Origin: Actinomycetota bacterium
Lineage (GTDB): Bacteria; Actinomycetota; Acidimicrobiia; Acidimicrobiales; Ilumatobacteraceae
Length of the DNA: 36,935 nt
NCBI GenBank assembly: GCA_016870935.1
Contig: VGAB01000007.1
Coordinates: 1-36,935, forward strand
Direction of reading: 5' to 3'
The notes under the pieces were generated by a model. That model worked only from the letters and a program-made list of their open reading frames with translations. It made no database searches and was not told where the DNA came from. Positions 22,727 through 29,375 of the stretch are shown here, piece by piece; the first letter of the stretch is position 1; each line of letters starts with the position of its first letter. Position numbers and translations under genes: made by a program.

Positions 22727-25276
22727 ATGTCCCGGCCATCGCGCGAGTCGCTAATTGCTCGGTATGACTTCATCCTTGACAAATTTCAGATCGAAGCACT
22801 CGACGCATTAGATCGTGGCGAGTCGGTGCTGGTTGCGGCACCAACGGGCTCGGGAAAGACATTGGTCGCCGAATATGCGATCGAGGCGGCTCGCCGTCAA
22901 GGTTTGCGCGCTTTCTATACGGCGCCGATCAAGGCGTTGTCGAACCAGAAGTTCAACGATCTCGCCGCCTATTTCGGGCGGGACGACGTGGGTCTGTTGA
23001 CCGGAGACAACAGCATCAACACCGACGCGCCGATCATCGTGATGACCACCGAGGTCTTGCGCAACATGATCTATGCGCGGTCGGAGGCGCTCGAGAAGTT
23101 GGCGGTTGTCGTTCTCGACGAGGTGCACTATCTGCAAGACGCCTATCGCGGCCCCGTGTGGGAGGAGGTGATCATTCACCTCGACCCGACGGTGCAATTG
23201 GTCTGTCTGTCGGCCACTGTCTCGAATGCCGAAGAGGTCACCGAATGGCTCAGCACCGTGCGCGGCAAAACACTCGCAATCGTCGAAGAAAAGAGACCCG
23301 TCGAACTCGTGAATCATTATGTGATCGGCGACAAGGCGCGACATGAATTGCGAATGTTCGAGACGTTGGTGGATGGATCGCCAAACCCGGAGGTTTCACG
23401 GTTCGAGCGACAAACAGATCGGAGATCGAAAGTTTTCGCGCCAAACCGGCTCGAGATCGCTGATCTGCTGCAAGACGAAGATTTGCTGCCCGCAATCGTT
23501 TTTATTTTCAGCCGCAACCAATGCGACGAGGCGGCCGAATCGTGCGTGCGCCACGGCATTCGATTGACCAACAAGGCCGAACGAGAGGAGATCGCGGAGA
23601 TCATCGACTCCAGAGTGGCGATCTTCAGCGATGACGACCTCGCGGCACTCGGGTTTTCGCGCTTCGCCAATCAGCTCGAATCGGGAATCGCCAGTCATCA
23701 CGCGGGAATGGTGCCGGCGTTCAAGGAGATCGTCGAAGAGTGCTTTATCCGTGGTTTGGTGCGCCTCGTTTTCGCCACTGAAACTCTTTCGGTCGGGCTG
23801 AACATGCCGGCCCGTGCGGTCGTGATCGAAAAGACGACGAAGTTCACGGGCGAGAACCACCAACCCCTGAAAGCGTCGGAATATACGCAACTCACGGGGC
23901 GAGCAGGAAGACGCGGCATCGACACGGTCGGCCACGCTTTGGTGCTCTGGAATCAATTCACATATTTTGATTCGGTCGCCGCACTGGCAATGAGTCGATC
24001 GTTCAGGCTCGTCTCGGCGTTCAGACCGACCTACAACATGGCGGCCAACCTGATCAACACCCACTCACGTCAAGAGGCGCATCACTTGCTGAACCTCTCG
24101 TTCGCCCAGTTCCAAAGCGGACGAGATGTCGTCGAGCTTCAGGCCCGGATTGCACGGCGCAGCAAGGAACGCGACCGCCTGCGGGCGCAGGCTGCGAGTG
24201 ATTTCGGCGACATCGACGAATATCGCGCAATCTTCGACAACAAGCCCGATGCGACCGCAATCGATGCAGAGCTCGCACGACTAAAACCTGGCGACATAGT
24301 CATGATCGCGCGTTCAGGTCGAGAAGCAAAGGCGGTGGTGGTTGCGACCGCCCAACGAACCACGGGCACGCGAGTCACCCTGGTCACGGCGAACAAGGCG
24401 GTGCTGCAGCTTCAGGCGGGCGACTTTGACCGGCCCCCGACGAGGGTCGCCCAGATTCGTCTGCCCGATAGTTATGCGCGCACGAGCCCTAAATACATAA
24501 AAGATGTCGCGCTTCGCGTGCAACGAACAAAAGTCAAGTCGATCACGAGCAAGGGCGGGGAGCGAACGGCTAGCGAACACCCGGTGTCGGACGATCCCGA
24601 ACTCCGTCGAAAGTTGATCGCCGCGAAATCGGCGGATCGCATCGACGGTGAACTGAAGTTGATCGAGGAGAGAATTCGAAAGTCAGTGCAAACAGTGAGC
24701 GCAAGATTCGATGATCTGGTGCAGTTGATGGAACGACGGGGCTATGTCGAAAATTGGAGGCTGACCGAGCAGGGCCGATCCCTTTCGAGAATCTTTCATG
24801 AACTCGACCTGTTGATCGCCGAGGCACTAGAGAACCAGATCTTTGACGGCCTCGAGCCCGCCGAGTTGGCGGCGCTGTTGAGCGTATTTGTATATGAATT
24901 CAGGCGTGCCGAGGAAGCCCCGAAGGCTCGAGTGCCGAAATCTTTGGTTGGTCGATGGAAAGAATTGCAACGCCTGAGTTCGGCGATCGGTCGCGACGAG
25001 GAGTCAAGTGGCGTGGCGGCGCATCGGGATCTTGACGCGGGTCTGATCGAAACTACTTTCGAGTGGGCGACCGGTGCCGATTTGATCGATCTCCTGGATG
25101 ACGACCTCACCGCCGGTGATTTTGTCAGAACGATGAAGCAGTTGATCGATTTGTTGCGCCAGATTTCGGAGATCGCGCCAGACTCTGCGACAGCAATCAA
25201 CGCCGAGAAGGCGACGAAACTGATCCTGCGCGGCGTCGTCGCCGCCTCGCAGGGCCCGGCTGTGGCGCAATCATGA
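22727..25276 (+). CDS. helY: Ski2/Mtr4-like DExH RNA helicase (HelY)
   Basis: The 849-residue superfamily 2 helicase has all core motifs: APTGSGKT (38-45), TAPIKALSNQKF, DEVH (131-134), LSATVSN, TETLSVGLNMPA, and QLTGRAGRRGID near 390-400. The C-terminal part holds the helical and DSHCT-like domains of the Ski2/Mtr4 group. In actinobacteria this gene, called helY, follows tatC, as it does here. Its role is thought to be RNA processing or decay, not firmly established. The stop codon overlaps the next start by ATGA. Confidence 0.93.
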   Translation: MSRPSRESLIARYDFILDKFQIEALDALDRGESVLVAAPTGSGKTLVAEYAIEAARRQGLRAFYTAPIKALSNQKFNDLAAYFGRDDVGLLTGDNSINTDAPIIVMTTEVLRNMIYARSEALEKLAVVVLDEVHYLQDAYRGPVWEEVIIHLDPTVQLVCLSATVSNAEEVTEWLSTVRGKTLAIVEEKRPVELVNHYVIGDKARHELRMFETLVDGSPNPEVSRFERQTDRRSKVFAPNRLEIADLLQDEDLLPAIVFIFSRNQCDEAAESCVRHGIRLTNKAEREEIAEIIDSRVAIFSDDDLAALGFSRFANQLESGIASHHAGMVPAFKEIVEECFIRGLVRLVFATETLSVGLNMPARAVVIEKTTKFTGENHQPLKASEYTQLTGRAGRRGIDTVGHALVLWNQFTYFDSVAALAMSRSFRLVSAFRPTYNMAANLINTHSRQEAHHLLNLSFAQFQSGRDVVELQARIARRSKERDRLRAQAASDFGDIDEYRAIFDNKPDATAIDAELARLKPGDIVMIARSGREAKAVVVATAQRTTGTRVTLVTANKAVLQLQAGDFDRPPTRVAQIRLPDSYARTSPKYIKDVALRVQRTKVKSITSKGGERTASEHPVSDDPELRRKLIAAKSADRIDGELKLIEERIRKSVQTVSARFDDLVQLMERRGYVENWRLTEQGRSLSRIFHELDLLIAEALENQIFDGLEPAELAALLSVFVYEFRRAEEAPKARVPKSLVGRWKELQRLSSAIGRDEESSGVAAHRDLDAGLIETTFEWATGADLIDLLDDDLTAGDFVRTMKQLIDLLRQISEIAPDSATAINAEKATKLILRGVVAASQGPAVAQS

Positions 25277-25896
25277 CGATCAAGAGGGGTCAAGACTGGG
25301 GTCAACTTGTAGAGCGTCCCGACAGACTGCATATTTTTGACGACGACTCGTCATTCGGCAGTTTTTTGAGCGACAATCGCGCTCTGGACTGGTCGAGCAT
25401 GAATTTTGCGATTTTGAAGTCTGAAGCGGCCCGCGATCTCGGTTTATCGGGCGCAAGAACCGAATCATCGCAGATGTTGCGAACCAGTTTCGATTTGATC
25501 GAGGTGCAGGCTCAGGTCGGCGATCTTCGAATCACCCGGTTCCTAGTGGGTCACGCGGTGCTGGGAAATGGTTTCTTTCGTGGTCGAACTGTTGGCGTCT
25601 TCAATGTCTCTTTTCATGCCGGACGGGATTGGGCGCCAAGAGCCCACCCCAACGACGGAAAGATGGATGTCGTGGAGTTCGCCAAAGACATGAAATTCGC
25701 GCAGCGGTTTGCCGCCTATCGAAAGTTGAAGACTGGTTCGCATTTGCCGCACCCTGATATTTCGTATCACCAGTCGAACCAATACCAATTTGACGACCTT
25801 CGGGCGACGCGTTTGACGGTCGATTCGCTCGATCTTGGCGCGGTGAAAACATGCACATTTCAGGTGATTGTCGACGCGGTGACGTTGTACTGGTGA
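25273..25896 (+). CDS. Stand-alone protein resembling the C-terminal domain of lipid (DAG/YegS) kinases
   Basis: The 207-residue protein shows the spacing of the C-terminal half of YegS/diacylglycerol kinases: NGFFRG (99-104), then APRAHPNDGKMDV (121-133) and GSHLPHPDI (155-163). In those kinases the equivalents are the N-G-x-x-x-G-G, P-A-x-x-x-D-G-x-L-D-V and G-x-H segments. The nucleotide-binding N-terminal domain with its G-G-D-G-T motif is absent, so kinase activity is not expected unless a partner supplies it. It overlaps the helY stop (ATGA) and so is co-translated with it. The family link rests on spacing and motif likeness only. Confidence 0.55.
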   Translation: MTIKRGQDWGQLVERPDRLHIFDDDSSFGSFLSDNRALDWSSMNFAILKSEAARDLGLSGARTESSQMLRTSFDLIEVQAQVGDLRITRFLVGHAVLGNGFFRGRTVGVFNVSFHAGRDWAPRAHPNDGKMDVVEFAKDMKFAQRFAAYRKLKTGSHLPHPDISYHQSNQYQFDDLRATRLTVDSLDLGAVKTCTFQVIVDAVTLYW

Positions 25897-27203: not shown

Positions 27204-28799
27204 GTGACGGTGTATGTGCCTGAAGTGTTCACTGACGAAGAGCAGGAGACGCTGCGTCGATACTTCACGAATTTGGACGGGCCGGTGTTCGCGCTCGTCA
27301 ACCTGCCCGAGGTGGTCAAGGGTGCGTTGTTCGCCCGTTATAGCCGAAGTCCGAAAAGTTTGCGGAGACTATTTTTGGACGAGTTTGTCGGCGATCTTGA
27401 CCTGAGCGGTGACAAGTCGGTCGATGCCACCACTGGTCTCGAACGCGCCGAAGATCTGTATGAGAAGGTGTTCGTCGAGTATGGCGACGACAGTGTCGCC
27501 CAGTTGGGCGGTGTTCATCTGGCCTGCGAACAAGCCTCGAACCTGTTGACGAAAATTCTTGAGCGCGGTCGATTGATGAGCTACCTCGAGCAGAGCACCC
27601 GCTACATAAATTACGACGCACGGCTCGGTGGTCGTTACCGCTTCTATCGCGATGGCGACATTTTGAACGGACCATTCGGCACCCGCTACGTGGGCGACAT
27701 GGACCGGATGTTCGACTCGTATTCGGCGATGGTCGAATCGGTGACGGCCCATGTTCGAAAAACCTTCAAACGCGACAGCAATGTCTCGGATTTCGTGTTC
27801 AAACAGGCGACTCGGGCCAAAGCGCTCGATGCCGTTCGCGGAGTTCTGCCCGCGGCGTCGTTGTCGAACCTCGGAATCTACGGCACGGGACAGGGCTACG
27901 AGGCGTTGTTGCTGCGAATGCGCGGCCACAGCTTGCCCGAGGCGCGGCTCTACGCAGACCTGATGCTCACCGAGCTGCGCAAAGTAGTGCCGAGTTTTCT
28001 GAAACGGGTCGACTTGGCAGATCGCGGCGGAGCCTGGACGAATTATCTGGCAGAACGCGAACAGGAAACGATCGAACTGGTGGACGACTATTTCGGCGCG
28101 TTGGACCCCGCCGAAGTGAACGAAGTCGAGTTGGTCGACTTCGACCCGCTTGGCGAGGAGAAACTTTTGGCGGCGATCTGTTATTCGAGCTCGCATCTTC
28201 CCGAGTCTCAACTAGTCGAGGAGGTTCGCGAATTAAGTCATGACAAAAAGGTGGCTTTGATTCGCGCCTATGTCGGGGAGCGGAAAAATCGCCGCCACAA
28301 ACCAGGGCGGGCGTTTGAACGAGTCGGCTACCGATTCGACGTGCTCGGCGACTACGGGGCGTTTCGCGATCTGCAACGACACCGTCTGCTGACGATCGAA
28401 TGGCAAAAGTTGACCCCGCATCACGGATATGTTCGACCCGAGTTGGTTGTCGAGGCCGGCCTGGGCGACCAATTCGACGAGTCGATGCACAGATCCGCCG
28501 AACTTTACGACGCGTTGTTGCCCGATTATCCGAGTCAAGCGCCATACGCCGTTTCAATGGCATATCGCATGCGATACACCATGCAATTCAATGCACGCGA
28601 GGCGATTCACATGCTCGAGTTGCGGTCGTCGCCGCAAGGCCATCCGTCATATCGGCGGGTGGCGATCGAGATGCATCGACTGATCGCCGAGAAGGCCGGG
28701 CATAAGGCGGTGGCAGAAGCGATGACGCACATCGTCAAGCAGGCTCCCGAACTCGAGAGGCTCGATTCCGAGCGAAAAGCGGAAGCCAGGCGAAAGTGA
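27204..28799 (+). CDS. Two-domain ThyX-like (flavin-dependent thymidylate synthase-related) protein
   Basis: The 531-residue product appears to hold two ThyX-like modules, about 40-260 and about 320-500. ThyX enzymes use FAD and folate to methylate dUMP and carry the signature R-H-R-x-x-S-x-x-x-Q-S-x-R-Y. The first module has RGRLMSYLEQSTRY (121-134), where the His is replaced by Gly. The second has RHRLLTIEWQKLTP (392-405), which keeps R-H-R but loses the Q-S-x-R-Y part. Single-domain ThyX is about half this length. Long ThyX-annotated proteins of this size probably exist elsewhere, but true thymidylate synthase activity is doubtful here. The start is GTG 27204. Confidence 0.75.
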   Translation: MTVYVPEVFTDEEQETLRRYFTNLDGPVFALVNLPEVVKGALFARYSRSPKSLRRLFLDEFVGDLDLSGDKSVDATTGLERAEDLYEKVFVEYGDDSVAQLGGVHLACEQASNLLTKILERGRLMSYLEQSTRYINYDARLGGRYRFYRDGDILNGPFGTRYVGDMDRMFDSYSAMVESVTAHVRKTFKRDSNVSDFVFKQATRAKALDAVRGVLPAASLSNLGIYGTGQGYEALLLRMRGHSLPEARLYADLMLTELRKVVPSFLKRVDLADRGGAWTNYLAEREQETIELVDDYFGALDPAEVNEVELVDFDPLGEEKLLAAICYSSSHLPESQLVEEVRELSHDKKVALIRAYVGERKNRRHKPGRAFERVGYRFDVLGDYGAFRDLQRHRLLTIEWQKLTPHHGYVRPELVVEAGLGDQFDESMHRSAELYDALLPDYPSQAPYAVSMAYRMRYTMQFNAREAIHMLELRSSPQGHPSYRRVAIEMHRLIAEKAGHKAVAEAMTHIVKQAPELERLDSERKAEARRK

Positions 28800-28880: not shown

Positions 28881-29375
28881 ATGGCTGACGAAGAAAACGA
28901 AACTGAAAACCCCGAAGAGGTTGTCGACGGAGAAGTCGAGCCCGACGAACTCATCGACGGCGAAGAAGATGTCGATCCCGAAGCGCTGTTGGATGAAGAC
29001 GGCGCAGAAGGGGATGAGGTCGACAGCGATTTGCTCGTCGTCGACCCGGTCATCACCGACGAAGGCTCGACCCTCGCCACGCCACCGACGAAACCAAAAA
29101 CGGGCGAAGAAGACGAAGAAGACGAAGAGCTTCAACCAGATGATGTCGAAGCCGATCTCTCGGCGATTCTGCAAGAGAAACTCACAACGCCTGTCGAGGT
29201 TGACGAAGACGTCGAAGACGAAACGGGTGGCGACGATCGCACAGACGGCGTCGAGCGGTTGCAACCGCGGCGACCAGATGAGACGCAATGCGACCGTTGT
29301 TACTACTTGGTTCGACAGAATGCGCCAGGGTGTCCAGTCGACGACCCGGTGTGTCCGCTGTTCCAAAATAGTTAA
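28881..29375 (+). CDS. Very acidic protein with C-terminal Cys4 motif
   Basis: The 164-residue protein is extremely rich in Glu and Asp over its first 125 residues, which are likely disordered. It ends in a compact four-cysteine segment: Cys137 and Cys140 (QCDRC), Cys151 and Cys158 (GCPVDDPVC). The layout of acidic body plus C-terminal C-x2-C knuckle recalls the actinobacterial DUF4193 proteins, though the second cysteine pair is spaced differently, so this is only a resemblance. A zinc-binding, possibly RNA-polymerase- or ribosome-associated role is a guess. It has a good ribosome site. The acetyltransferase gene follows within 10 bases. Confidence 0.65.
   Translation: MADEENETENPEEVVDGEVEPDELIDGEEDVDPEALLDEDGAEGDEVDSDLLVVDPVITDEGSTLATPPTKPKTGEEDEEDEELQPDDVEADLSAILQEKLTTPVEVDEDVEDETGGDDRTDGVERLQPRRPDETQCDRCYYLVRQNAPGCPVDDPVCPLFQNS

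Follow-up and report, generated by a model that had tools for sequence, protein, structure and literature searches.

The gene at the head of Table 1 very probably encodes an active flavin-dependent thymidylate synthase in which a single chain carries two ThyX modules that share a composite site, a reading built on residue conservation, structural models and the near-absence of other thymidylate synthases from genomes with the gene. It lies in the window, by which we mean the whole 36,935-nucleotide stretch of actinobacterial DNA analysed here. Pfam matched Thy1 (PF02511) twice and no other domain in the 531-aa protein, with 55.2 bits for the first match (27441-27995) and 66.9 bits for the second (28167-28694) against a curated cut-off of 24.8, which bears out the two ThyX modules that a first-pass annotation had read in the open reading frame 27204-28799. 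The NCBIfam thyX equivalog TIGR02170 scored 43.4 bits, below its curated cut-off of 87.9, and a sequence search of the PDB with the same protein returned no match at E 1, so that the tie to solved structures depends on Pfam, profiles and models.

Two neighbouring reading frames were also noted. The frame directly 3' of the gene (28881-29375, +) is without a Pfam match; its 164-aa product is very acidic and has a tail rich in cysteine (CDRCYYLVRQNAPGCPVDDPVCPLF). On the 5' side, a 207-aa ORF (25273-25896, +) overlaps the end of a helicase gene; only the C-terminal beta-sandwich domain of YegS-type lipid kinases was matched in it (27.8 bits, cut-off 27), and no kinase domain was found.

Table 1. 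Positions in the window of the tandem ThyX gene, its modules and its putative ligand residues (canonical positions in T. maritima numbering unless marked Mtb).
Feature	Position	Strand	Remarks
Two-module ThyX-type thymidylate synthase (predicted)	27204..28799	+	531 aa, GTG start; two Pfam Thy1 matches in one open frame
N-module, residues 1-303	27204..28112	+	Putative "subunit C" dUMP side; also S55 of the "subunit B" side
C-module, residues 304-531	28113..28799	+	Putative "subunit A" side: RHR and R174
S97 = T. maritima T55 / Mtb S71	27492..27494	+	FAD phosphate contact, subunit B role (PMC6514825)
N-module motif RGRLMSYLEQSTRY, residues 121-134	27564..27605	+	E86, S88, R90, Y91 kept; without H79; R78 not conserved
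R212 = T. maritima R147 / Mtb R172	27837..27839	+	dUMP phosphate contact; Mtb role from PMC9571937
C-module motif RDLQRHRLLT, residues 388-397	28365..28394	+	R78, H79, R80 kept; without E86, S88, R90, Y91
RHR, residues 392-394	28377..28385	+	Within the C-module
NAREAIHMLELR, residues 463-474	28590..28625	+	N163, R165 and dUMP-activating R174 (R474); R174 role from PMC8316439

In the ThyX of M. tuberculosis (Mtb), three subunits contribute to each active site (PMC6514825): subunit A with R95-H96-R97 and R199, subunit C with Q103, S105, R107, Y108 and R87, and subunit B with S71 and R190. A docking study places R172 in contact with the dUMP phosphate (PMC9571937). In a viral ThyX, too, residues of two monomers surround one pocket, Q75 of monomer A and Q89 of monomer B (PMC3498832). 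The T. maritima equivalents are R78, H79, R80 and R174 for subunit A, E86, S88, R90 and Y91 for subunit C, and T55 and R165 for subunit B, with R147 as the dUMP-phosphate Arg; S88, R90, Y91 and R174 are catalytic residues tied to the chemistry in the T. maritima enzyme (PMC8316439).

The two modules of the window protein keep complementary parts of this set. The N-module has E129, S131, R133 and Y134 (ExSxRY), together with R212 and S97, and is without the RH of RHR and without R174 of ThyX, retaining in T. maritima numbering S/T55, E86, S88, R90, Y91 and R147. The C-module has R392-H393-R394 and R474 and is without ExSxRY and R147, so that the retained canonical positions are R78, H79, R80, N163, R165 and R174. 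The full dUMP/FAD ligand set (R78, H79, R80, E86, S88, R90, Y91, R147, R174 and S/T55) is thus present at least once per chain, each member, split between modules. Neither module contains the ThyX signature RHRxxSxxxxSxRY, with RHR confined to the C-module and SxRY to the N-module, and only the whole chain supplies both parts. Because the ligand sets of the two modules come from different subunits in canonical ThyX structures, the split follows the subunit split, with the C-module bearing the residues of the A face and the N-module those of the C face.

This partition is conserved. Across 128 of 128 actinobacterial relatives, S97, R123, E129, S131, R133, Y134, R212, R392, H393, R394, R465 and R474 are invariant, and their opposite-module counterparts are replaced, save for the Arg at R80, which is present in both modules. 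At the R165 position, actinobacterial proteins have an invariant Gln in the N-module (Q230) and an invariant Arg in the C-module (R465), although this subunit-B residue sorts uncleanly, since Bacillus and some phage forms have an N-module Arg. The motif that the first-pass annotation had described for the N-module stands as regards Gly in place of His (G122, 127/128) and the intact E-x-S-x-R-Y, but not as regards the first Arg: R121 is Trp in 87 of the 128 proteins, so the "R-x-R" is conserved only in part. Its description of the second module, as keeping RHR and losing the Q-S-x-R-Y half, agrees with the sequence, in which residues 392-394 are followed by LLTIEWQKL and by no ExSxRY.

The same picture emerged from a count over all alignment columns, with no residues chosen beforehand. 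Of 50 columns conserved in one-module ThyX, 14 diverse tandem proteins keep none in both modules, 9 in the N-module only (among them S55, E/Q86, S88, R90, Y91 and R147) and 3 in the C-module only, the latter being R78, H79 and R174, found in 14/14 diverse C-modules; the equivalents of S97 and R212 are present in all 14 N-modules. On these comparisons, the residue split is no product of chance.

The genome of origin, that of a freshwater actinobacterium (1.58 Mb, 90.7% complete), was searched for other routes to thymidylate, a check that the first-pass annotation had proposed for thyA and canonical thyX. Neither ThyA nor any ThyX besides the tandem gene was found in it, so the gene takes the place of ThyA in its genome, a mark of ThyX/FDTS; nor was a DHFR found there. 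The ThyX reaction yields no dihydrofolate, and the absent DHFR therefore fits a ThyX-dependent organism. ThyX users are often without DHFR (PMC1971073). Of 61 related genomes, 59 have a ThyX match, in nearly all cases with both modules in one gene, and a few of the 61 give partial matches; ThyA is present in one. Among 149 Actinomycetota genomes, 44 carry tandem ThyX; a one-module ThyX is absent from all 44, and a fragment of ThyA occurs in a single one. The tandem gene is the sole thymidylate synthase found in its own genome and in nearly all sampled members of the order.

Thymidine kinase is present in the genome, so thymidine salvage exists, and dTMP could in principle come from salvage if the protein were a ThyX-derived enzyme that, in the manner of PolB, (hydroxy)methylates another nucleotide or that carries out another flavin reaction. 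The shared fold of PolB and the low similarity of the sequence to one-module ThyX, with a score under the NCBIfam thyX cut-off, would also suit such an enzyme, which we nevertheless consider quite improbable: all dUMP and catalytic residues of ThyX occur once per chain and are invariant, tandem genomes of the phylum are almost always without other thymidylate synthases, and a phage relative adjoins a dCMP deaminase gene and lies near a dUTPase gene. With every residue of the dUMP and flavin chemistry once per chain, the new flavin- or nucleotide-dependent activity floated in the first-pass annotation finds no support, and neither does its caution that the name thymidylate synthase would be risky, as tandem genomes have neither ThyA nor one-module ThyX almost without exception.

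Structural models point to ThyX folds in both modules, where the earlier reading had made a second ThyX fold the thing to look for. The whole-chain model reached a pLDDT of 87.3 and a pTM of 0.87, and its C-module (residues 304-513) superposed on T. maritima ThyX 5chp with Z 16.6 over 190 residues (rmsd 2.4). As the whole-protein structure search gave C-module matches only, the N-module was modelled (AlphaFold, pLDDT 81.6) and searched alone; its best PDB match was Mtb ThyX 3hzg (Z 12.3, 169 residues, rmsd 2.7), against Z 4.4 for the first non-ThyX row. Profile comparison by hhalign matched each module to canonical ThyX, the N-module with E 5.8e-12 and the C-module with E 1.4e-14, and gave no significant match between the two modules directly. 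Because each matches canonical ThyX, we take this as complementary divergence, not missing homology.

The C-module is thus the closer of the two to canonical ThyX by profile and fold, and dead paralogues serve as partners in other enzymes, such as deoxyhypusine synthase (PMC3663545). Both points would suit a protein in which the RHR-bearing C-module alone was catalytic, as dimer or tetramer, and the N-module was a structural or regulatory pseudo-enzyme. We give this arrangement even less credence, as the C-module is without S88, R90, Y91 and R147 in every lineage whereas the N-module keeps all four, and a pure scaffold is not expected to retain exactly the missing ligands.

Tandem ThyX extends well outside the order. 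It occurs in plasmid records of Bacillus, Paenibacillus, Parabacteroides, Euzebya and Miltoncostaea, where NCBI names it FAD-dependent thymidylate synthase, and in phages Tunturi_5, Microcystis LMM01, Microcoleus, Vibrio BONAISHI and Yong. Every aligned plasmid or phage protein has the same split, including the Bacillus/Paenibacillus plasmid, Parabacteroides, cyanophage, Vibrio and Acidobacteria phage versions, with the Bacillus and phage forms at 22-30% identity. The match in Vibrio phage Yong covers two annotated genes but proved to be one tandem ORF of 461 aa. One plasmid of Parabacteroides distasonis (NZ_OY725790, L170) encodes a tandem ThyX that shares 44% identity with the protein of the window, which suggests a transfer from or to the actinobacterial-type group.

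In a tree of the modules, the N-modules group as a single clade (98/100), and the C-modules all fall to the same side of a branch (71/99). This fits a single ancient duplication, for which the tree is moderate evidence, given a bootstrap that had yet to settle and the long branches of several C-modules. Together with the correspondence to the canonical subunit split, it lends good support to the earlier proposal of duplication followed by division of binding roles. That the gene is instead decaying, with two modules degenerating independently, or is an assembly artefact has next to no probability: the frame split of one relative and the few partial matches would fit, but nearly all of the 61 relatives share the architecture, mostly in uninterrupted frames, and conservation of the split residues in 128/128 contradicts decay.

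Several actinobacterial genomes depart from the common arrangement. In L004 (G004, contig C35), the tandem gene lies in two frames, one per module, probably through an assembly frameshift. One genome of the phylum, G100, carries two different tandem genes (L072 on contig C71 and L073 on contig C5). Two loci of a related family, considered as split tandem versions, were rejected, since G110 (L178:3004-3909, contig C1 near 3140147) and G099 (L179:2880-3788, contig C3 near 26559) each have, in place of the tandem form, a different and divergent one-module ThyX of about 302 aa with the motif NTHRxFSRNSxSSRAIP, close to a dapA-like gene; the tandem form is present in other genomes of G110's family.

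A mechanism can be proposed within the canonical frame of a homotetramer with four active sites, each built from three subunits. The C-module would act as subunit A and the N-module as subunit C, carrying R147, with the N-module probably also supplying S55 for the subunit B role. Two chains would then form a pseudo-tetramer with two complete sites, each made of a C-module face and an N-module face, and two degenerate ones. For such a dimer, we infer a binding mode in which dUMP would be held by R133, S131 and R212 of the N-module and R392 and R474 of the C-module, and FAD by the C-module RHR, stacked on dUMP; in catalysis, the methylene group of CH2-THF would pass to the flavin and on to dUMP, giving dTMP. 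It is doubtful, if somewhat less so than the alternatives weighed above, that the two degenerate sites hold a second role, such as NADPH or folate binding or regulation; if they do, the protein would be an asymmetric thymidylate synthase in which redox chemistry and methyl transfer take place in separate pockets.

Judged by sequence and model, then, the protein appears to combine an ordinary function with an unusual build, being a flavin-dependent thymidylate synthase with its site shared between two fused modules. It would represent a natural inter-subunit complementation experiment, in which the multi-subunit active site of an essential type of enzyme was fixed by duplication and complementary loss, apparently once, in an architecture spread over Acidimicrobiia, other actinobacteria, Firmicutes plasmids and large phages. 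Tandem ThyX allows each catalytic residue to be altered on a single side of the site, offering a direct route to the subunit roles of ThyX and to the number of working sites. Besides, annotation by the thyX equivalog cut-off can overlook the thymidylate synthase of a whole order. We found no published account of the complementary split in the literature on tandem, double or fused ThyX.

Among known systems, the ThyX of Chlamydia trachomatis (CT632) has about 530 aa, roughly twice one module, and was reportedly assayed by Griffin et al. in 2005 and shown to be active as a thymidylate synthase in a bacterium that has no ThyA. If that protein is tandem, activity of the two-module architecture has already been shown, and by this analogy it may already be known. 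PolB, the UMP/dUMP methylase of Streptomyces cacaoi, has the ThyX fold (Z 13.6 to the C-module) and exerts its activity as a one-module chain. Canonical ThyX (FDTS), represented by T. maritima TM0449 and M. tuberculosis ThyX, shares with the tandem protein the predicted fold of both modules, the dUMP/FAD ligand residues, the three-subunit logic of the site and the replacement of ThyA. It differs in having one module per chain, with all ligands in that module and four equal sites, whereas tandem ThyX has two half-ligand modules per chain and at most two complete sites per predicted pseudo-tetramer. The closest counterparts in build are the long ThyX proteins of the Bacillus/Paenibacillus, Parabacteroides and Euzebya plasmids and of phages Tunturi_5, LMM01 and BONAISHI, which have the same two modules and the same split; the Bacillus and phage forms retain H53 and, in part, R165 in the N-module, and most of them are without N163 and R165 in the C-module.
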